The position numbers and the translations under genes are program-made. A stretch of 64,000 nucleotides of DNA from Lutjanus erythropterus (lineage: Eukaryota; Chordata; Actinopteri; Lutjaniformes; Lutjanidae): positions 26,138,094-26,202,093 of the forward strand of contig CM034610.1 in NCBI GenBank assembly GCA_020091685.1. The letters are read 5' to 3'. The notes below the pieces were generated by a model. The model searched no databases, was not told where the DNA came from, and worked only from the letters and a program-made list of their open reading frames with translations. The number at the start of each line of letters is the position of its first letter. The first letter of the stretch is position 1. Below are positions 376 to 63,846 of this stretch, piece after piece.

Positions 376-596
376 TCTCAGTATAGTTATCAGTTACGGA
401 TAATAAAAAAAGACAATCAGATTACAGTTACATTTAATAAAAATGTGTATTATTAGTTTTTGGTCATTAATTTGCACATAACAAAGGAAACAGTTGGAAT
501 AACTAATTGACTGAACAACAAATATAAACATTAAATCAACGAGGTGTCTTTCCATAAAACTTCTGGACAGATGTTTTCCTCCATTAAACCCAACAG

Positions 597-3500
597 GTCA
601 CCGGTCTCATCGCGTCCACGTGGAACATCCCCATGTTTGGCTTCGTGGGACAGTCCTCTAAAATGGACAACGGCGACATCTACGACTCCTACATCAAAAT
701 CGTGCCGCCGCTGAAAAGGAGCGCAGAGGTCCTGGTGAAGACGTTGGAGTTCTTCGGCTGGAGCCACGTGGCGATGATCGGAGGCGGACTCGAGTCGAAC
801 ACCTGGGACAAAGTCGACGCTTTGTGGAAAACCGTCGAGAATCCGCTGAGGGCTAAATTCAAACTGGTCGCCACGGCGAAGTTTGACACCAGCAATCCTC
901 AGCTAGTTTATCGAAATGTTAAGTACATCGCAACAGTCGCCAGAGGTAAAGAAAGTCCTTTTTTTGTCTCTTTAAACCACATATAACCTTGATTTCTTTA
1001 CTGTTTTTATGTTTGTCCTCCAGTGATCGTGGTGCTCACAAACCAGGAGGACTCGATGTCTCTGCTCCTGGAGGCCGAGCGACAGGGTCTGATGAACGGC
1101 AACTATGTCTTCTTCCTGGTGCAGCATTTTGAGGTCAGTGGCAGCGTGGTGAGTAAAAACTTTAACACATATTAACAATTAAACACTATTAAGTTAACCT
1201 CTGCCATTATGTAAAATCCAAACTCTGGATAAAGTTTGGAAAAATATCGGAAAGCAAAACATTCGGCAGTTTGATGAAAACCAAAAGAACAGTGAAGTTG
1301 TCAGGTTTGCAGGCATGCAGTTTACAGAGAAAGACCTATAGTTTGTGCGTCAAACTTTTCTCAAGTGCTGTGTGCTTAAGTGAAAAAAACACAATTTGAC
1401 AGACAAAAGTCTCCACAGGGATTTAATAAAAAGATGAAATACTTTGGGCCTCATGCATCAGAACATCCGCAGATAAAAGGCACAATAACCTTTAAGTTTT
1501 TGTGGGAATGTTCAACAAAGGTGGTGGTCAGTGACACAAAGACTCGCCTGCCTTTGAGTTCAAGAGGCAGGGAAACAACTGTTGTGAACCACTGATTTCA
1601 GACACAGGCTGACAAAAGCAGGCTCCTCATATCTGGTCCGTGACACTTGATTTTGTCGGCTGAAATGAGCTGTCGCCGGCAGATTTTGTGAGCTGTGACC
1701 GGCGAGCTAATTGAGCTAACGTTTGTGCAATGAGTTGGTTGAAAACGCCATCTCCAGCTGACTTTGTAATGTTTCCAGCTGACTGTTTGTTTTTTTTCCA
1801 AAAAGGGGTCGTGCCTGAGGCTAAAGAGAGCAGGATCCCAGGCAAAATGGTCAAACGGTCAAACTTAACACTTCTTTTCTTTTTTTCCTGAGCAGGACAA
1901 CATGTGGAAATATACCCTGAACAACAGGATTAACCAAGAAGCCATAAGAGCTTTCGACATGGCCTTTATCATCGGCCAGAAATCCTACGACAGCTACGAG
2001 TATTATGACTTCTTTGAGCAAGTTTTTGAGAGACTAAAAGGACACCCGTTCAGGAGCAACCTGACATCTGAGAGGGAGGTCAGCACCCATTATAAGAACT
2101 AAAAATCACATGTGAAAACTTAAAAGTAAAATCACTTATCATTTTATGTCTTTTTTTCTCCTTTAGGTTAGCCCTTACTCAGCCCACCTGCACGACGCAG
2201 TGCTTCTTTATGCTCTGGGACTGAAGGAAGTCCTCAAAGATGGAAAAGACCCTCATGACGGACGACAGCTGCTACGGAGGCTAAAAAATAAAAACGACAT
2301 TCGATTTCATGGTTTGTAGCTGCTTTGATAAATGTAGTGTAGGGACTGATCTGTACTGCAGTGGAAAGCATGCAAAGTACTCAGAAACCTTTAACACTAA
2401 ACATGCGGCGCTTTTTTGTTATTAATTAGTGCGTTTATAAGGATTTTAATTACAGAATGTTCAGAAGTAGCTTGTGGTTTGGTATTGTGGTTAGCGGTCT
2501 AAGGTTCGCAATTATGTTGCGCAGCTAACGTTAGCAGTTGTTCAGTGTAGCTAATATTAGTGATTATTCTCCAAAGCTAATGTTAGCAGTTGTTCTGTGT
2601 GTTGTTGTTTTGTGTAGCTAATGTTAGCGGTCTACTGTTAGCGGTTGTTCTCTGTAGCTAACACTAACAGTTGGCATGTGTAGCTAATATTAGTGGTTGT
2701 TTGTGTAGCTGCTAGCTGTCTAACATTAGCAGTTGTTGTCTGTAGCGAATGTTAGTGGTTTAATGTAAGCGGTTGTTCTGTTTAGCTAATGTTTGCAGTT
2801 GGTCTGACCTGTAAATGTTTATTCAAATTAGATGTTGCATGCTTTATTAATCCCCATTTTTACTAAATATAACTGTGATTAGATTGTCTTTTTTCTGATG
2901 GAATATATTTACCTTTTTTGCACCCTAATTAAAAAATCCCATTACATGTAATCCATTAATTCCCACCTGGGCCAACATTGGTATATAAATTTTAAATTTT
3001 ACAAAATATGAATAAAATATTTCTTAACACTCATTAAGTTATCTGAGCTGTGTAAGAACTATGTATGTGTTGGCGAGCACATCGAATCAGAGGCAGTTTG
3101 ATGCAGGTGTGCTGATCACTGCAGGTGCGTCTGGACTGGTCCACTTTGACGAAGAGGGGGAGAGGAACCTGGACTACTCCATTTATGACCTGCAGCACGC
3201 AGAAGACACCACCAAGTTTGTCCCCATCCTGCATTTTGACAGTCACACCAAAAGTATCCGGTAACAAAGCGCTTTTATACAATCAATCATGATAAACACA
3301 TTTTTTTTTTTTACGAATTAACAACCAAAAAATGTCGTTTCAGTCCAACGCCTTCGTTTTCTTCTGTGGTCTGGCCGAAAGGAAGACCCCCCTCTGATAA
3401 ACCAGAATGTGGTTTCAACAACGAACTCTGTGAATGGCTGCTTAATGGTAAAACAACACTTACAAGTAAAAAATAAATTCAAAAAATGGCCACTCTGCAA

Positions 3501-6500
3501 CCAGTACAAGGGTGTTTCTTCAACTATGGACACTTTTAAGTCCCAGCAGTGATTTTAGATTCATGTTAAAATTTCTCATATGTTGCCATCTGCCCTTAAG
3601 ATCAAGAAAGAAAGAGGTTTATTGTACTGTTGAATTCATGAATATTAGATGCTCAGAGTCAAAGCTAACATAGCAGACCTTGCTAGCTGCTATTTATCTG
3701 CAAAATTAGCAAAAATGTCATTTCTGCAGCAGCTTTAGGTGACAATTTCAGGACAAACAAATGGTAATGTCAGTATTCTTCAACCTGGAGCCTAATTTTC
3801 TAAGTGACTGATGGGAACAACAAGTTTTGAATATTGATCCCATATTGAGCGAGACTGCAATGGAATCCAGCCAATGTTAACAGCAGCTTATTGTTAAAGA
3901 TTACATTATTAACATTTACCATTAAGATTGTGTCCTTAACAGCTTTATTTTAGCTACAAACATGATTTTTTTATTTGCAAACATTATTTTAGCATTTAAG
4001 TAGACATGATTTGCAGGTTAGAATTCCAGTATCTGTCACTAAAAGCAACATATTTTCATGAAACGTATCAACATCTAACATTATTTGTCTAAATTGAGCA
4101 GAGAAAATCAGGAAATTCTCTTTTTTTTATTTTTTCAGTATTTACAATGATGCACAACGTTTGAAAAGATTACATTTAAAGAATAAATGGTGAAAACTGA
4201 AAAAAATAAACATACTCCAGATTAAAATCAATGCATTTTGAGTACCTATTTATGTTTATGTATTACAGACTCTGATGCTTAAAATTTAAATTTGCAGTAG
4301 CTGAGTTTTACTAATTTTGGAGATTTAAAAATGCACCCACATGCACCAGTTATCTCAGTTTTTAAGTCCAGTCTAACCACCTTCTTAATTTCTTGTGCAG
4401 ACATCGCCCTGCTGGCTCTACTGGTGACCTTCCCTGTCATCGGCGTGCTGGCGGTTTTGTTCATCTGGGTCCTCATTCTGCAGAAGTTACGACTGCAGAC
4501 AAGGCTCGACGACTCCTGCTGGTGGCTCATCAACTACAGCGACATCACCATCATCAGGGAGTCCTCGGTATGAGCTCTACGACGCGCGAAGAATTTAAAA
4601 AGCGTGCGTTTGCTTGCCTGGTTTTGCGCTGCTCACCGGTTTTCTCGGTGTGTGTGTGTGTTTTTGTTTTCTCTTCCAGGGAGTTCAGGCGTTATCTCTG
4701 AGCACCACGGGGAGTCACAGTGGGAGCAGGAGCAGCGGCTCTCAGTCCAATTTCTCCACCAACAGCTACGGCCTGAGGGACAAGGCAGGGAAAGAGCACG
4801 TCTACACCACCATCGGTCTCTTCCAGGTACCAGATTTATTCACTTAAAAGTGAGCCCATAAAACTTTTCCTGAACAGAGGCCACAAGTTGATTATGTGAT
4901 TATGTTTTTATGATGTTTGTATACCTGAGCTACAACTAAATCACCCCTGGTGGGATAATAAAGTTTGTCTTGATAAGTGGAAATTACAGATTAATGATGA
5001 AAGCAGAGTCTTATAGGCCTTTTCCCCAACAGGAACTTAATGACCCGTGACTTTTAGGAGAGAACATTAAAAGTATATTCCAGATTATTTGAACTGGGCG
5101 CTTACCCATAGCATGTTACCTATAGTAAATGGCAGTCGACACGCCCCCAGTCTGGAGAAGCAGGCGGAGAACCGGCGAGGTTAACAGCTGGTACACGCTC
5201 CACGCTCGGGCAGTGTGAGTGTGCGTGGCGTTAACCTGCTGGTTTTCATTTCGGCGCCCATATTAACAGGTTAAGCTTTACGAGTTTTTTCTCTCTACGC
5301 TTTATAGAGTCGTCAGTCCAGATGTCAGTTAAACATCTGGTCTCCTCCTGTCATCATATGCTCCCGCAGCTCATTTCATTTTTGTGCATTTGTTTTTAAA
5401 TCCAATTTCAAACAGAATCTACTCCTCTTTATAAACATATCATATATAATTATGTCATACAGAGTGATGCATGATGTTCCACTCATATCTATACTTATTA
5501 ACAATAATTCACAACAAACGTTTTACACAACAGCAAACTTGAATGCCAATATACTGTTGAAATTTCCAAATGGGAACTCGAAATTCCGACTTTCCAGTGC
5601 AACTTGAAGTGCATCTCCAGGTTAGGTGTTATGTTCCTGTAGAGGAAAAGGTCAAATAAAGTCAGCAAACTGATTCAGTCGTGTCAAAGTCACTGCAAAA
5701 TCCAGCTAAAGGTTGCTAACATCAGCTAATATTTGATCACTGAGCTCCTGGTCAGACCAGGCAAAGTGAGGCTGCAGCAGCAAAACCCCGGAGTGTACTG
5801 CATCAAGCAAGTGTGCATTTTATTGTTTATGAATGTGAGATTTCATGTCATTCATGCGGAAGATAGTTTTTTTCTTCTTCCAAACATTACAGGCTTACTT
5901 TAAGACATTTAACGTACATTTTGAAATTTTATTTTCTTCACGAGGGACGATCAGGGGTCTGCAACCTGTGGCTCCAGAGCCGGTTTTATTTGAAATGAAT
6001 AATTGCTTTTCTCTCATTGTATTTTTTTTAAATTCCATACAGGGAAATCAGGTGGCCATCAAGTACATGAAGAACAACGTTAACATTAATTTCCAGAAAC
6101 GTTCAATAATCACAGAGTTAAATCTGGTAAAGTTCCTCATGTATTTCTAGAATAAAACATACTTTGTTTTGGTTTCACTGTTTCTTGCATTTATTCTGAT
6201 TAATACAACAGAAGTAACATAAATATCATTCTATATGTTAGTGAATGATTGCAGTGTTTTCTTTTTGTCGCTCCTGATTTGATCTATTGTGTGCCTAACC
6301 ATCGTAAACTCTTTAAGACAGATGAAAGAGATGAAACATGAGAACTTGGTGCAGTTCTTTGGTGTTTGCATCGAGCCGCCGAACGTCTGTTTGGTAACTC
6401 AGTACTGCAGGAAAGGCAGCCTGAAGGTCAGTGTCTCCATCTGTCACACTGTTAACACTTCATACTGTAAATCATCACTGTAAAACTCACTCTTTAATGC

Positions 6501-9500
6501 TTGTTTGCACTTCAGTTATGTTTTTTTTTTTCAACCCAATTTGGGTCAAACTACCCGTACGGCGTAGAGAACCACCTGAAACAAGGGCTCTTTATTTTCA
6601 TTTTCCAGGCGCCATAATTCCTTGGTAAATAGGTGGTAATTACCAAGTAATATGTTTCTTAGAGGGTACCCACAAGTACTGTCTTCATGAAGTAGCTGGT
6701 TATTACAAACCAACATATTTGAAATTTCTGAGAAATTACCAACAATTTACCCCCATATTTAATGGAGAGTATGTGGTAATTTGCAAATGTCACTTTCAGG
6801 CATACTAACCATGAAGTTTGGTTGTAATTTATGGGTAATTTCTAAGTAATTTCAAATATATTACGTGGTAATTAAAACGAAAAAAACGGAAAAGTTGCAA
6901 AAACTCAACATTTCAAGGCAATGAACTGCAACAGCTGACTTAAATTGTTTTTTTAAAGTTTTGAAAAAGTTTGTAAAAATTTTTACTTTTCTCTTCTAGA
7001 TAATTTGAATTTTAGAAACTGAAAACACTGTCTTTGATGTTGTTAATTTCTCCTTCAGGATGTTCTGAGGTCTTCAGACGTCGAGCTGGACGGGATGTTT
7101 AAGCTGTCGTTTGCTTATGACATCGTCAACGTGAGTCATTTTTTTATGCAGCATGTTTGAGTTATCCTTATTTAGTGGTGGAACAGAGACATTAAATATA
7201 ACCAATGTTTCACCCATGTACCCAAAGCCAATAACAAAATAAATAAATAAATAAATGAATAAAAAAAAAAAAAAAATCATCAATTGACAGGAATTCCCAG
7301 AAGAAACAGAGACAACATGACCTCAGAGATGTCAATGGTAGCTACAACACAGCCCTTAAATTTGGAGATTGAATCTTAATGTTGACTCCATCTTTTAAAC
7401 AAAAACACAACAACTAGATCCACAAAATAAAACTAAAAAATTGGTGTCTGACTGTTAAAACGCAAATTGCCGTTAAAGGCGACGGCCAGTTCATGGTTTG
7501 ATCCTGTTCATTTGTGTTTCAGGGGATGGAGTTCATTCACAAAAGTAACCTGAAGTTTCATGGGAACCTGAGGCCCAGCACGTGTCTGGTGGACAGTCGA
7601 CTCCAGATAAAACTCTCTGGTTTCGGACTGTGGGAGTTTAAACACGGGACCAAAAACAAGATGATCCCGCTGGACAACAATAATTATGACGGTCAGTCGA
7701 TGCACAGGAGTGACGAATGTGAGGTGATCTGAACCGTTTCGTAGTTACCGTGTGTTTGGCTCGCTGTGTCGTAGAGATGTACTGGACGGCTCCGGAGCTT
7801 CTGAGACAAGTCGATCTCCCGGTCAGGGGAACGCCCAAAGGTGACGTCTTCAGCTTCGCCATCATCATGTGGGAGCTCATGTACAGGTCTTGCCCGTACC
7901 ATGACATCAACCTGGAACCCAAAGGTTAGCACGATACACACATTAATTTTCTTTAGCAGAAGGATGGAAATACTGCAACATACTGAACAACAGGAAGTAG
8001 ACAGAAATTAATCTTCAATCTATCAGACTGACTGACTGCAAATGAAACTCTTACAAACAAAGAGAGAGGACACATGAATCACACACTAATTTTGTTTGGA
8101 TATGAAATAAAGCCAGCTGGGATAATGCGATGGATCGTTGTCCTCCTCAAGCGTTAGTTAGCCGGATATGCTAACGTTCGCAGCAGACAAAGACAAAGTT
8201 TAATGATTCCCCACGTGTCCTCTTGCATTTGACATTTTTGAAAGACTACAAATAATTGCCACTGTCTGGACTCATGAAACGCTGAGTATCGCCCCTCTCT
8301 GAGCCCCCTGCACACTGCTTCGACATGTAGAGAAATGCAGAGCTTGACAGGCCTGCAGCATACCATCAGCCCACCTCTGACAGCAACTGTCCAATCATAG
8401 CTTAGCAACTGTAACTAGAGCTGACAAGCTTTCCACTTCTCTACATGTTTGACGGTGTGCAGGAGGCTCTGGGAGGAGCGATACTCAGCGTTTCGTGAGT
8501 CTGGATGGTGGCGCCTTTTTTGTAGTCTCTCAAAAACATGAAACACAAGAGCACACACGTGGTGAATGGATTCACCTCTGTCTGCATCTGCTCTAACATA
8601 GGCTGCGAACGTTAGCATGTCAGGCTAACTAACAGTAGCTTACTAGCATGCTGATGCTTGTATTGGACAAATTTAAAATTTGGCTTGATGGTGGCACTAG
8701 AGGAAAACTCGGATGATCACTTAAGTCAGAGGGATTCAATGTTTAGGGGCCATAAATGAACGTTAGGACAAAATTTCATGGCTATCCGTTTCAGTTTGGA
8801 CAGATGTGATGGACAGGCCTACACACTGTTTGCAAGGCTAAAAAGATCTCAAAACAAAAATCCCCAAATTCCAACACTACGATGACTCAGTTCGGTTCAA
8901 ATGGGGCGTATTGGCATGGGAAACAGATGCCAAAACAAGCAACAAAATTAAAAAGGTTCCTGCTTCTTGCCACATCTTTTTTCCAGAGATCATCATGCAG
9001 CTGCGGACGCCTTTCCAAGGGGAACCCCTCCGACCGATGCTGTGCGAGCAGCTGTGTGATGAGCACATCAACTCACTACTGAGGGCCTGCTGGAGTGAAA
9101 ACCCCGACCACCGACCGCCATTTGGCTCTATAAGGAGACGGCTAAGGGAGACCAGCCCAGACAGGTCAGACCTCTGACAGACATACTGTAAATAAAATGC
9201 TCCATAATACTGTGAGAAAATAAATTGTTCTCCCTGTCTCTCATTTGGGCCCTCAGATGCAGTTTGTAATATGGTCACAAATTTTTACTAATAAGAGAAT
9301 GTAAATGAGAATTAAACAGATTGTTGTCATAAATTAGAAAGCATTCAGCGATCGAATGTCTTTGCCAGGGCTGTAAAATCCTTTAAATCTGTGATCTGCT
9401 TTAAAATAAAATACTGGTAGTGAAAATATCAATGTTAAGTTGCACCAAATATGATCACTGATTAAGTTGCGACCAAGTTTCACTGAAATCTGTGATCTGA

Positions 9501-12500
9501 ATCTGAATATCCTGCTAACTAACTTCCAAACCAGTCTGTAAACGCAACACTCCTGAACCGGGGGGTGATCATGATGATTCTCTGTACTGTAGTCATGCAA
9601 ATATACTGGATAATATGGTGGAAAAGTTGGAGAAATATGCAAATCACTTGGAAGAGGTGGTGGAGGAGAGGACCAATCAGCTCACAGCAGAGAAGACCCG
9701 TGCAGACAAGCTTCTCTCCAGCATGTTACCAAGGTACCAGATGTAAACGGCATCAAAATGATCAATATTGTGCTTTTTCTTTATGCTGTGTCAATCATGA
9801 AAAAAGACCTGAAGTCTAGCAATTCATGGCAGCCCATTCAAATCATGGTGCCATCGGTTGAATGGGTTTCCATGATGACACCTCTCACCTCGCCAGTGCT
9901 GTCGCCTCTTTTGATGCAGGTACATCGCGGATCAGCTGATGGCGGGGAAATCCGTGGAGCCGCAAAGCTACGACACGGTGACCATCTTCTTCTCTGACAT
10001 CGTGGGCTTCACCTCCATGTGCTCCGTCAGCTCCGCGATGGAGGTGGTGACGTTCCTCAACGACCTCTACAGCCTCTTTGATGACATCATCAAGATGTAC
10101 GATGTCTACAAAGTAAGTCACACAAACCGCTTTTATTTCTCAAAAAATATTCAGGCAAGAAGATTTTGATGAAATACACTGCTGAGAGTTGGATGAGAAG
10201 ATTGATAGCACTCTCATGTTAGCTTACCACAATAACTGGAAAAAGTGAGAAACCTGGCCTAGCCTGCCAGTCTCCAAAGGTAACAAAATCTGTAAAGAAA
10301 GATAAGAAAAGGTCAGAAAATCTGCCTCTCAAAACTCTGAAAGTTCACTAATTATCACTTGTAATTATCACACAAAACAAGCGCTCCCTCCTCCCTCTCC
10401 TGCCTCTCCTCTTCATTTCCTCAAACCAGACAGCGAAAGAATTGATGTCACTCCACCAAACGTGGAAAAAGTTTATGTTTTATAAGAAAGATGAGAAACA
10501 CAGCTGCAAAGCATTTATGCAAAATATGTCTGACAGCAGAGTAGAAAGCCACGGGTCTCCTGACCCACAGAGACGTCATGTCTCTGTGACAGCAGGTAAC
10601 AGGTAGCATCACTGTTCCTCCACACCCCACTTCCTCTACACGGTCAAATTCAATCAAAACCACAGAACTCTTCATATTAAACAGAGCAGCAGATCATCTC
10701 ACTGCAAAAATGCATTTTAAACAGTTTTAAAGTTTGTTCACAGATTCTCTTTTCTTTTGGAATAATTCACGTATAAAACCTTTTTGATTTATACCACCAT
10801 ATTTTGGTGGATTAAGTCCAGGACTGAATTTCGCTGCTGTCCTCCTCTAAGCTGTACTGAGATCTGCATCCTTACTGGCTGTAGCTTCATATTTACCCCA
10901 CAGACATGACAATGGCGTTGATCTTATCTAACTATTGTCAAGAAAGCGAACAAGCATATTTCCCAAAACGTAGAACTAATATTTTAAAGTTAAGATATTT
11001 TTCATTTAATCATATATTGCATCGTTTTTTTAATTACATTGTGCTGTTTTGTATAAAAAAGGTTCCCACTCTGACTGTAAAAATTGTCAGTAAAACTTTC
11101 ATCTTGGCTTCTTTGACAAGGTGGAAACAATCGGTGATGCGTATATGGTGGCCAGCGGTCTACCCATCAGTAACGGTAATAAGCACGCTCTGGAGATATC
11201 TACGATGGCTCTGCATTTCCTGAGCGCCATCAAGGTCTTCAGAATCCGTCACATGCCCACTGAGAGTCTCGCGATTCGCATTGGGATACACTCAGGTAAG
11301 ACACAGAACAACTACAAGTCAACTAAACAGATTCAGAACTTTTAAAAACTTGCTTAACCTGTGGCTCTTCAGACGCTCTAAGGTGGCTCCCCGTGGCTGT
11401 GCCAAAAAATTATACGGTGATGAATAACAGGTTTTTTTTTGACATTTTAATTTTCAGTTATCGTTGTCGTAGGTCTGCACTGTAATAAGGAAAAAGTTGA
11501 GAAAACTCAAACTTTTCTTCTTTAGATACACTTAAATCTTTGAGTTTTACAAACTCAAAAAAGTTGTATTTAAAAGTGAAAAGTGAAGTAAATGATGGTT
11601 AAAATATTAATATTTTCACTTTTAATTTTCAGGTATCAATATAATGACAAACCAGTTTCACAGCTCAATGTGGCCACTGTTTGAAATACATTATTTTGAA
11701 TTTCTAAAACTCAAAGACTCAAGTTTATCTAAAGAAGAAAATTATCTCAACTAAAGATTATAGGTTGGCAAAACTTTTTAAGTTTATTTCAAAGCTCAAG
11801 AGTTTACGTTGGGCTCCAAACTCAAAGATGTACTGCAGTACGTTTTCTTGATATGTTGAGTTGTCTCAACTATTTTTTTATAGTCTAAACTGATTCTTAT
11901 GCCGGACATCTGGTTCCCTTTAAGGCCACAGGTCACAAGTTTATGGTTCTGCAGGCTTGTCATGCAGACTTAATGATGCACAAAAACATGAAATAAGTGA
12001 CATTTGACAAGTTTGAACGCATGTATACAAACAGTATGTTCTGGGTTTTGCAGGTCCGGTGGTTGCTGGAGTGGTGGGCACCACAATGCCTCGCTACTGC
12101 CTCTTTGGCGACACGGTGAACATGGCGTCTCGCATGGAAAGCAACAGCTTACGTGAGTGAGCTGAAGTAAAATCTTAGCAAGCGCTTTTCATTAAAGACG
12201 ATCAGTATCACAGTTTTATTGTTTGAACTTTCTGGATTCAATTTAGGTAACATACATGAAGTGTTTTGTCAGTGCAGAGGACGTCATTAGTTTTAGGACA
12301 CCTTGAAATTGTTTGGTACTCTCTCTTCTGTATATTTAAATTAGCCTTGAAGATTCACATATCTCAGTGCACAGCTGACATTCTTGTTCTGGCTGGATCG
12401 TTTGAGCTGGAGGAAAGAGGGGAAATCGAAATGAAGGTGACATTTGTTTACCCCCCTATATGATGAACAACGTACAGTATGTTTTTGACAAGTTTTTGAC

Positions 12501-15218: not shown

Positions 15219-20630
<5,412 letters not shown>

Positions 20631-22222: not shown

Positions 22223-23124
22223 TGTGGTAACTGTGCATAAGTTTTAAAGATGTTGCAGGCAGATTTTTTTTTTATCCTTTGAACAGAACCAAGCTAGCTG
22301 TTTAACCCTGTTTCCAGTTGTTTATGCTAAGCTAAGCTAACTGGCTGCTGGCTGTAGTCTTATATTTAATGGACAGAGGTATCTATCACGTTATCTAATG
22401 CTCTGCAAGAATGAAAGTGTCAAATTACTCCTTTAACCAATAAATATCTTAACATTCAATATCGTTTCTCAAAAATACATATCTAAACATGTAGTATCAC
22501 AGATGTATTCTGAAGACAGAAACTGAGGTGGGCAGAGAAACCGACAGCCCTGTTCCTTCCCTCTGTCCTACTGGGACAAAAGAGGACAAAATGTCCAGAA
22601 ACAGAATACCATTTAAGAAGCTAAATAGTGAAAACAGACATGTATGGATACCTTCAAAATGTGATGGCAGCTCAGATAAGAGCTGGCACACACTAGTAAC
22701 TAGTGTTCTTCGGTGGAGATGATAGGCCTGTGTTTTGCAGCATTCAGTAATATAAGGTTTCTCACAGTCTTGTGCTATTAGATATCGCTTTTGTCTCACC
22801 AGCTTTTCGTATGTGACTGAAATGTGTTCTCATTGATTTGTTTGCATCATATTTGTTGGTTCATATCATGTTGCCGAAAGCCTCGGTAGCTTTGGTTTTG
22901 ATGTAATGAGTGTCCATTTTTTCTGATGTCTCTTCAACTCACAGTTTGTTATATTTTTTCTGCTCTAAATCAAATAAAAAAGGATGGAATTTACACCAGA
23001 AAAAGACATCATTGTAATCAAAATCTGCAAATCTAAATATGCCACCAATGCACCAATAAAGCTTGAAATCTTTTCATGCAGCTCCATTCACACAATCAAA
23101 AGCCTCCTTGCAAAGACTTAATGA

Positions 23125-24922: not shown

Positions 24923-25181
24923 CTTCAGATGGAATCGATAGCTGTAATCAAAGATCACTAAATGCATTGAGGTCGACACTGTATGAGACATAATGGCATT
25001 GTTGAGCCCAGCTACACACAGCAGTGCTTTTGTCAAAATTTACAAAATGAAACCATAAAGAAAATCATCCTTGATGTAAGACTCTAATAAGAACATGTAG
25101 TAATACAGCGTATTTTGAAATACATACATTTTTCTATACAACATATTTACATAATAAATAGCTTTAATGTTGAGGTTGGCA

Positions 25182-27571
25182 TCAAGGTTTGGGCACTTGG
25201 CAGGTCCAACTTGTTCGTTCTGGTTGGTAAATAAAATCTCTCCTGGAAGACAAACAAACTCAGGTTAGATCATGTGAACCATGAAATTCACTATCAAAAC
25301 CAACAAATATGTTTTTGAAAAGGATTTTAAAAGCAGAGAGATCTGCACTGAGATCCTGCAGAGTTTGTACTCCTCTGTCATGTTGGATGAAAGAAAAGTT
25401 CACACAACAGTTGGAAAGACTGTATACTGCAAATTTTACAAACATCCAAATTAAAACTGTAGTATATGTTACATTAACAGCTATTTGTTTTTCATAAGAC
25501 CAGGACTAGTGGTATTGCTAGATTAACATAAAACACACACTTCATGCCAGCCAGGTTTTCTGAGTGTCAGTAAAGTTTTCTGAAACAGAACAATAACCCC
25601 TGGACTGAAGGTTCTCTAATTACCCCTCACCCCAATCAAGTTTGTTAGCTTACACTTGTGTGCAAAAAACAAAATAATTAACTTTTATACAACCAGGAAA
25701 TGATTTAATCATTGCATGTCAAATAAAACTGCGACTGTGGAATTTCACTGCCAATTAAACTTCACAAATGGACGTCAAAATGTTTTTTTCGAGGATTTAA
25801 TTGCTATTCTTTGGCTTTCTGAGCTGTTTTACCGACATCTATAATGTGTTTTCAATTTTTCCAGATTCTAAATTTCCTTTGTGTAATGCTCTGTGGGACA
25901 ATAGTGAACGTAAAGAGCATATTTTAAAAATCAAGATTTTTTTTCAATGTTCATGACGTTTTGCTTAGATTTGGTGTGGCAGTGTGGATTTAAGACGCAG
26001 TTTGAACCTTCATTTTGACACAGCGTCCTCTGTAAGACAGGGCCTCACTAACGCAGGACATGTCTCACTTGATCTTGTATATAATTGGCACAAATTCCCA
26101 AACACATTTACAATTAATCAGCTGCTGTAGAACCATTTGACAAAGCTGGGATCTGGGCTCTGTGTTCCGGTGATAGTCGAGCCTCAGCTTTTGCTATTTT
26201 GAGTAAATAATTTTAGATGAAAAAGTTTGTTTGCTGTACTCACTCTCTCTGGTGTGATGCACCATTTTCACGACACAGCAGCCCCTCGTCACACGGACAA
26301 ATCTGGTTAATGCTGAATGCCAGGCCGCCATCAGGAACGTAGCAGCTCTCACCACGGATCAGACGTCTCTTGCACACCTGTTCACCATGGTGTCGAGCGC
26401 AGCACATGGACGCCCCACAATCCCTGTCAACTTTACATCTGGCACCTGCATGAAGGAAACACCAAATGTTTGTTCTTTGTTGCAATGCATTCAATTCTCA
26501 TTTATAATGTATTTAATGTGTGTATGTGTATGGGCTGCAAATGATGATTGTTTTCATTCATTTTCATTCTTTTTTTGATTAAGTAATTAGTTGTTTGGTC
26601 TATAAAATGGTGAAAAATGGTGAAAAATATCAACGTCATCTTGGGTTTCAGGAAACATCCTCAAATGTCTTGTTTTGTTCACAACCCAAAAATATTCAGT
26701 TTAGTGTCATAAATGACTAAGGAAACCATTACATCTTGAAATTTAAGAAGATGAAATCAGAGAAATTTAATTTTTTTTTCCTTTAAAAAACCTTCTCAAA
26801 CCGATTAAGAGATAATTAAAATAGCTGGCAATTAATTTAATAATCCATTAATCATTTTTAAAAAGTAGGTCACCAGGAAAAAAGTTTGTGAATCACTCGT
26901 CTACAGGACAAGGGGTGCCGCACACTGTACAGACTGTAAAACCCCCCTGAGATAAATACATTTTGATTTGATTGATTGATTGACTCTTACCCTCCTGTCC
27001 GTTGGGGATGCTGCGGTGACACTTTCCAAACATGCAGCTGAGTCCGCGGACACACTGGGCGTCCCGCCGACAGTAGTGGCCCTCCCCTCGCAGAGGAACG
27101 CAGAGACCAAAGTGACGATCGCAGGAGAAACCCCGCCCACAGGCCCTGTCTTGATCGCACACAGCCTGGGGAGAAAATGTTAAATGTGAAAACTTTATTT
27201 ATATATTAACTTTAAGACTTAAAAAAAAATTGCTGAGTTTTAAACCAACTGCATTAACAGCCCATTTTACATCTAAGTATGGAAAACTAACAGGTTGCAA
27301 TTATTTTTTAACATAGATTTTCTAGAACTGGCTTTTGCTCTGATGATTTCTCAAAAGTTTAAATAAAAGTTTAAAAGACAAGCTTCATATTCATGCACAG
27401 AATCCAGAGTTATCTTACCGTGGTTGCTTTGGCTACAGGGAGGATTTCTCTAAGGGCCTTTGCTCCTTCTTTGGGTGGGCTGTGAGGCATGTTGAGCATC
27501 CAGGCCCAAATCCGAGCTTCGGCCCAGGAGAAGCAAAGACACAGGCAGACTATCCACAGATTCCCCAACAT
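25182..27571 (-). CDS. Secreted Dickkopf-family protein, DKK3-like, short
   Basis: Small secreted cysteine-rich protein, probably an extracellular modulator of Wnt-type signalling by family analogy. Exons in transcription order: 27571-27419, 27165-26991, 26445-26244, 25242-25182. Total 196 residues. Signal peptide 1-19 (MLGNLWIVCLCLCFSWAEA), then a short 34-residue spacer. CRD1 spans C54-C100 with eight cysteines (54, 60, 66, 73, 83, 89, 95, 100). A 12-residue linker leads to CRD2, C113-C191, with ten cysteines including CC at 124-125. Exon 3 reads straight into a TGA at 26240, but 'cagaga|gtgagt' is a strong donor just before it. Splicing to 25242 adds RDFIYQPERTSWTCQ, which supplies the expected tenth CRD2 cysteine. 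The short inter-domain linker resembles DKK3, not DKK1/2/4, but length (DKK3 ~350 aa) and CRD1 differ. Exact orthology unresolved. Confidence 0.8.
26527..26865. repeat. Copy 2 of the 'gctgcaactaacgatt' family
   Basis: Contains 'gggctgcaaatgatgattg', 'tcctcaaatgtcttgttttg', 'cacaacccaaaaatattcag' and 'ggcaattaatttaataatcc'. Lies in the intron between exons 2 and 3 of the Dickkopf-like gene. Confidence 0.7.
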
Positions 27572-40098: not shown

Positions 40099-61286
<21,188 letters not shown>

Positions 61287-63773: not shown

Positions 63774-63774
63774 G

Positions 63775-63846
63775 AGGGGGCACCCGGATTTGAACCGGGG
63801 ACCTCTTGATCTGCAGTCAAATGCTCTACCACTGAGCTATACCCCC
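63775..63846 (-). tRNA. tRNA-Cys (anticodon GCA)
   Basis: 72 nt including the discriminator U. The acceptor stem GGGGGTA pairs with TGCCCCC. The D-arm TAGCTCAGTGGTAGAGCA contains the A box. The anticodon loop CTGCAGA carries GCA at 63814-63812. The T-arm has GGTTCAAATCC (B box). No intron. Stems are fully paired and there is a downstream T-run, so it should be functional. Confidence 0.97.

Follow-up and report, generated by a model that had tools for sequence, protein, structure and literature searches.

A 64-kb window of the genome of the snapper Lutjanus erythropterus (part of contig C20 of a 938-Mb genome; coordinates below are those of the window) carries on its minus strand, at 27571–25182, a Dickkopf gene whose first cysteine-rich domain (CRD1) has eight cysteines instead of ten. 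On balance, we favour the view that the gene is intact and represents a third Dickkopf lineage in jawed vertebrates, apart from DKK1/2/4 and DKK3, that it is probably the orthologue of turtle DKK3L, that its four-bond CRD1 is more likely old than newly reduced, and that its product acts otherwise than as a clamp on LRP6. The gene structure predicted from the DNA, the cysteine pattern and a best placement between the DKK1/2/4 and DKK3 clades are shown here and the bond pairing has been shown in DKK4, while the bonds of this protein, the direction of change, the turtle orthology and the function are inferred.

A four-exon Dickkopf gene

The exon model, read from the DNA with predicted splicing, comprises four exons and a 591-base reading frame for 196 amino acids, with all three introns of the GT–AG type (Table 1). 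A first-pass annotation of the window had given the same length of 196 residues and placed the gene at 26244–27165. That interval takes in exons 2 and 3, but exon 1 with the putative signal peptide and exon 4 with the tenth cysteine of the second cysteine-rich domain (CRD2) fall outside it. The protein belongs to the Dickkopf family by its match to Dickkopf_N (PF04706; 43 bits for exon 2, curated cut-off 25) together with two cysteine-rich domains, and the CRD2 in exon 3 matches that of DKK1 with 40 bits in phmmer. A weak match of CRD1 to antileukoproteinase (E 0.002) was put down to shared cysteine spacing. The AlphaFold2 model of the exon 2 product has a mean predicted local distance difference test score (pLDDT) of 80; that built from exon 3 by itself was of low quality (mean pLDDT 56.7) and was discarded.

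Exon 1 has a hydrophobic start with a putative signal peptide that, judged by eye, ends near residue 19. On that assumption about 34 residues precede CRD1, compared with 22 before Cys41, the first CRD1 cysteine, in mature DKK4 (residues 19–224; PMC6078440), and the description of a protein with almost no N-terminal spacer does not hold. A CRD2 exon with nine cysteines that ends at an in-frame TGA was rejected because this TGA falls inside a splice donor (GA/GTGAGT). The same holds for the two dkk3 genes of the genome, whose donors between C9 and C10 of CRD2 are likewise of phase 2. The acceptor of predicted exon 4 has the highest score (6.4) among those within 6 kb that are in phase and lead to an early cysteine; a competing acceptor at 22570 is nearly equal (6.3). 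When the same scan was applied to the dkk3 genes, the C10-type exon ranked third of 11 by score on C1 (GRGSMCLK...) and first of six on C12 (GRGSVCGE). With its frame, splice sites and remaining cysteines kept, the gene looks intact.

One disulfide bond is missing from CRD1

The cysteines of CRD1 are residues 54, 60, 66, 73, 83, 89, 95 and 100, and those of CRD2 are residues 113, 119, 124, 125, 134, 144, 159, 161, 167 and 191, the last of which depends on predicted exon 4. Leucine and valine stand at the C5 and C8 positions of CRD1, and the spacings C4-x9-C6 and C7-x5-C9 are the same as in the aligned paralogues. The earlier claim of an eight-cysteine CRD1 without C5 and C8, with the other cysteines in register, beside a CRD2 of ten is thus borne out in the spliced model, the tenth CRD2 cysteine coming from exon 4. 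Three substitutions separate the Leu76 codon from a cysteine codon and two separate the Val90 codon, so a single base error accounts for neither absence. Both cysteines are present in all five other Dickkopf genes of the genome that exceed the family cut-off, and the window protein, with eight, departs from the ten-cysteine CRD1 of these paralogues and of known vertebrate Dickkopfs.

For the CRD1 of DKK4, whose structure has been solved, the reported bonds are C1–C3, C2–C4, C5–C8, C6–C9 and C7–C10, with C66–C80 corresponding to C5–C8 (PMC6078440). The two missing cysteines are partners there, as the central test of the first-pass annotation had asked, and exactly one disulfide bond is therefore gone from CRD1. 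Random loss of two cysteines from ten hits partners in 5 of 45 cases (one in nine); by itself, their partner status is suggestive, not conclusive. With the pairing taken from DKK4, the window CRD1 would be held by C1–C3, C2–C4, C6–C9 and C7–C10, two bonds in each hairpin half, and would lack the C5–C8 bond that in DKK4 joins both ends of the central loop. The product would be a secreted protein with two small disulfide-knotted domains.

A position between DKK1/2/4 and DKK3

A Dickkopf_N profile search of the genome returned at least 18 matches with E values no higher than 10. Those over the cut-off represent six genes; nine weaker matches below it and outside these genes (L016 and L018 to L025) were left out. 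The genome therefore has at least six Dickkopf genes, the window gene and those on C3 (dkk2), C23, C16 (dkk1), C1 and C12 (both dkk3), with names that we assigned from sequence. The Dickkopf on C23 (L027) has a dkk2-like CRD1 (73% to dkk2 on C3) and a CRD2 nearer to that of dkk1 on C16 (76%, leaving uncounted a long serine-rich insertion between C9 and C10). No relatives were found in the viral contigs or the bacterial and archaeal genome contigs searched.

The window protein is 25–27% identical to the dkk3 proteins in CRD1 and 28–35% in CRD2, and 27–35% and 31–35% identical to the dkk1/2 type. It is thus about as distant from both (25–35% and 28–35%) as they are from each other (28–39% and 32–36%). 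Trees were built from six sequences (135 columns) with splice joins read from the DNA, and the best topology attaches the window gene to the branch between the dkk1/2-type clade and the dkk3 clade, the latter with ultrafast bootstrap support of 98 (LG) and 100 (WAG). The approximately unbiased (AU) test rejected five of eight other topologies under LG and six of eight under WAG. One topology that stays reshuffles the dkk1/2 clade and still leaves the window gene between the clades (p 0.17 LG, 0.11 WAG); another, as sister of dkk3 on C12, stays under LG only (p 0.051). Two results weigh against a separate lineage: support for the dkk1/2-type clade is modest (78 LG, 80 WAG), and a position as sister of dkk1 alone survives the AU test (p 0.31 LG, 0.26 WAG). 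The Shimodaira–Hasegawa test rejects none of the eight topologies under LG and two under WAG, and the branch to the window gene is long (1.9 substitutions per site under LG).

The gene structure is likewise mixed, combining a dkk1/2-type intron before CRD2 with a dkk3-type linker and an intron between C9 and C10. With DKK1/2/4 the window gene shares its CRD2 sequence type (the 40-bit match to DKK1), the intron just before CRD2 and an end within five residues of C10 (predicted exon 4), but it differs in its eight CRD1 cysteines, in a linker of 12 residues compared with 47–48 in dkk2 on C3 and dkk1 on C16, and in a CRD1 contained in a single exon. On the Pfam models of the DKK1/2/4 C-subdomain, the window protein reaches 24.7 bits with PF21481, below the cut-off of 27, and has no match to PF21479 at E up to 1. 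The genome's own dkk1 and dkk2 score 69.5–95.9 bits on these models, and the dkk3 proteins of C1 and C12 score 13.7 and 12.9 bits on PF21481. With DKK3 the window gene has in common the 12-residue linker between CRD1 and CRD2 and the phase-2 intron between C9 and C10 of CRD2. It lacks, however, the introns that both dkk3 genes have between C5 and C6 of CRD1 and at C4/C5 of CRD2, has no CRD2 insertions, keeps eight rather than ten cysteines in CRD1 and stops five residues past C10 (predicted exon), whereas the exon candidate of dkk3 on C1 carries on into a long tail (LKGEDSSEEDLTDTLYSEIDYII). Unlike both dkk1/2 and dkk3, it has no intron within CRD1. Of the earlier proposal of a distinct DKK3-related subfamily, the distinctness stands with respect to the five other Dickkopfs of the genome, but a particular relation to DKK3 is unsupported, identities to dkk1/2 being about equal.

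Age of the eight-cysteine CRD1

Compared against shuffles with cysteines held fixed, the window CRD1 resembles the CRD2s of all three dkk1/2-type proteins (z 4.2 to 6.4, reached by at most 1 in 2000 shuffles in three schemes), whereas its likeness to the two dkk3 CRD2s is slight (z only 0.8 to 2.3); to the CRD1s of dkk1 and of dkk3 on C1 it gives z 2.6 to 6.0. The ten-cysteine CRD1s of the paralogues mostly lack this CRD2 likeness. Within the window CRD1 there is a half-repeat that extends beyond the cysteines, and its AlphaFold2 model superposes on the CRD2 of DKK1 at 1.8 Å over 49 residues. The four bonds left in it are those common to CRD1 and CRD2.

An eight-cysteine CRD1 is also reported to be shared by anthozoan (Nematostella) and protostome Dickkopfs (PMC6425005). 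Compared by description, these proteins resemble the window protein in having eight cysteines in CRD1, as far as the text tells, and ten in CRD2, but they are termed dkk1/2/4 orthologues there and which eight they keep is unstated (PMC6425005). Because of these invertebrate domains, the four shared bonds, the likeness to CRD2 and the half-repeat, the eight-cysteine CRD1 may be old and not a fresh loss; we infer that the four-bond form is more likely ancestral than recently reduced. The suggestion of a coordinated loss, not decay, is supported in that the gene looks intact and the missing cysteines are partners in DKK4, but the direction of change may be the reverse, with the eight-cysteine state the older one.

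Turtle DKK3L and invertebrate dkk5

DKK3L of the turtle Pelodiscus sinensis (XM_025186202.1) is described as a protein of 201 amino acids encoded by four exons, with two CRDs and without a Soggy domain, and its expression as high in the spleen (PMC10967326). It shares with the window gene a length of about 200 amino acids (201 versus 196), four exons, a signal peptide (putative in the window protein), two CRDs and the absence of a Soggy domain. Complemented and read in one of its three frames, the turtle reverse primer gives MFGQCH, which matches five of six residues of MFGKCH, a peptide that ends just past C10 of CRD1 in the window protein. At the level of bases the primer agrees with the window gene at 15 of 20 positions and with the five paralogues at 9 to 13 of 20 (best ungapped nearby match). 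The forward primer peptide, YSLPYH, has no clear likeness to the window protein, where by distance it would fall just after the putative signal peptide. Turtle DKK3L is probably the orthologue of the window gene, as judged from one primer-length stretch. The gene would therefore already be annotated and probably not be confined to fish, and the DKK3L label may mask its identity. The turtle study equates DKK3L with DKK3a and, in the part of its text consulted, makes no mention of missing cysteines (PMC10967326).

Work on brachiopods distinguishes dkk5, known from a brachiopod, a hemichordate and a cephalochordate, as a third subfamily of Bilateria and states that it was lost in vertebrates (PMC11414264); a later review still counts two Dickkopf branches (PMC12550998). 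The literature searched, in which subscription journals are thinly covered, yielded neither a vertebrate dkk5 nor a vertebrate CRD1 with eight cysteines. Nothing bearing on the missing cysteines came from PMC10606412, PMC8235796, PMC9094562, PMC5450241, PMC5786327, PMC12550998, PMC12864833, PMC8959454 or PMC10416458. Set beside the window gene by description only, dkk5 is likewise a lineage outside dkk1/2/4 and dkk3. The window gene is a natural candidate for a vertebrate dkk5, and the identity is plausible. More tentatively, and with somewhat less than even confidence, we propose that vertebrates kept dkk5, that the window gene and turtle DKK3L are its orthologues with an early four-bond, two-hairpin CRD1, and that the C5–C8 bond was gained later in DKK1–4.

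Dickkopfs (DKK1–4) appear in textbooks as regulators of Wnt signalling. If fish, and probably turtle, have an additional lineage with another disulfide plan in CRD1, this would alter the repertoire of the family, its inferred losses and the account of how its domains arose. Vertebrates are usually credited with DKK1–4 plus DKKL1 (PMC10967326). Orthology to dkk5, if true, would contradict the stated vertebrate loss and would provide a living intermediate for the origin of Dickkopf domains by subdomain duplication, for which the arguments have until now been structural. The gene also offers a natural test of what the C5–C8 bond of CRD1 does.

Predicted mode of action

The N-terminal motif NXI(R/K) occurs nowhere in the 196 amino acids of the window protein. 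Six residues of DKK1 are named as LRP6 contacts (H204, F205, W206, S228, E232 and R236; PMC5325476). As read from the phmmer alignment to DKK1, the window protein keeps one of them (H204) and has not kept the basic stretch 222–226, compared, by the alignment of the paralogues, with six of six contacts in dkk2 on C3 and five of six in both dkk1 on C16 and the C23 Dickkopf. Because the motif and five of the six contacts are missing, a DKK1-type clamp on LRP6 is unlikely. DKK3, which lacks these contacts, is said for that reason not to bind LRP6 (PMC6078440), and evidence that it can bind LRP6 has been mentioned (PMC5325476). Our best guess is that the window protein is most likely a DKK3-like secreted modulator that would act through another surface or partner.

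Alternative explanations

A separate, old lineage has to be weighed against a fast-evolving duplicate of a DKK1- or DKK3-type Dickkopf that lost the C5–C8 bond, in which case its CRD1 would resemble those of invertebrates by convergence. The long branch, the surviving sister-of-dkk1 topology, and the dkk3-like short linker and phase-2 intron all fit such a copy, and a paired loss of cysteines is what would be expected if constraint on one bond were relaxed. Yet the probable turtle orthologue pushes the age of the gene back to bony vertebrates, a derived copy would be expected to have lost the CRD2 likeness and half-repeat that CRD1 keeps, and the gene has no CRD1-internal intron of either the dkk1/2 or the dkk3 type; we hold this origin to be unlikely, with perhaps a quarter of the weight of opinion. 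Quite improbable is a CRD1 exon that arose as a duplicated or converted CRD2 exon and then lost the CRD2-specific C3–C7 bond. The resemblance to dkk1/2-type CRD2s and the superposition on that of DKK1 would follow, but the domain also resembles true CRD1s, has the C6–C7 spacing of a CRD1 without the long CRD2 loop, and finds its best Pfam match in Dickkopf_N.

The window gene could also be a strongly diverged fish DKK4, since DKK4 is described only from mammals and reptiles (PMC6078440), which leaves a gap in fish, and turtle DKK4 likewise has four exons (PMC10967326). However, human, turtle and whale shark reportedly share a conserved POLB–DKK4–VDAC3 segment, and the turtle carries both DKK4 and DKK3L (PMC10967326). 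POLB and VDAC3 are not among the genes recognised in the 64-kb window, where the neighbours are guanylate cyclase-like, beta-tectorin-like and plexin-domain-containing-like genes. The CRD1 of DKK4 has ten cysteines (PMC6078440), and the Pfam models of the DKK1/2/4 C-subdomain are not reached. On gene neighbourhood and cysteine count we set this identity aside as very unlikely. An assembly error or a decaying gene is hardly credible: the basis is a single genome assembly, but both altered codons lie at least two substitutions from cysteine, the other cysteines, the frame and the splice sites are intact, and a turtle transcript that already bears a name appears to represent this gene.

Genomic neighbourhood and other features

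The Dickkopf gene is flanked by genes resembling receptor guanylate cyclases, beta-tectorin and plexin-domain-containing proteins (Table 1), the last two of which we take to be TECTB and PLXDC. GUCY2G and TECTB are reported to lie close together in the dog as well (PMC7589484), and the region is therefore usable as a synteny anchor.

Table 1 Features of the 64-kb window
Feature	Position	Strand	Content or basis
Exon 1	27419..27571	-	ATG, putative signal peptide, N-terminal stretch ending just before CRD1; residues 1-51; GT donor
Exon 2	26991..27165	-	Complete eight-cysteine CRD1 plus linker; CRD1 C1-C10 at 27159-27019
Exon 3	26244..26445	-	CRD2 C1 to C9; phase 2 end at GA/GTGAGT
Exon 4 (predicted)	25182..25242	-	CRD2 C10 and stop; ERDFIYQPERTSWTCQVPKP (stop)
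CTG, Leu76, at C5 position of other Dickkopfs	27091..27093	-	Codon reading, paralogue alignment
GTC, Val90, at C8 position of other Dickkopfs	27049..27051	-	Codon reading, paralogue alignment
TATAAAA	27802..27808	-	237 bases upstream of ATG; motif only
ATTAAA, poly(A)-signal-like	25163..25168	-	Starts 14 bases past stop; motif only
Receptor guanylate cyclase-like gene	534-11342	+	Pfam ANF_receptor 588-983, Guanylate_cyc 9915-10166
Beta-tectorin-like gene, ZP-C domain	16735-16968	-	Pfam match
Plexin-domain-containing-like gene	55-61 kb	+	Only sub-threshold NIDO match

Right beside the beta-tectorin-like ZP-C exon, a stretch of roughly 500 bases (16998–17518) consists of degenerate tandem repeats rich in A (periods 19 to 119) and yields long low-complexity open frames on the minus strand. 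ARAGORN calls a tRNA-Cys (gca) at 63774–63846 on the minus strand, either a gene or a tRNA-derived repeat. Open frames at 41876–42243 resemble a repetitive element that is widespread among the genomes of fish.
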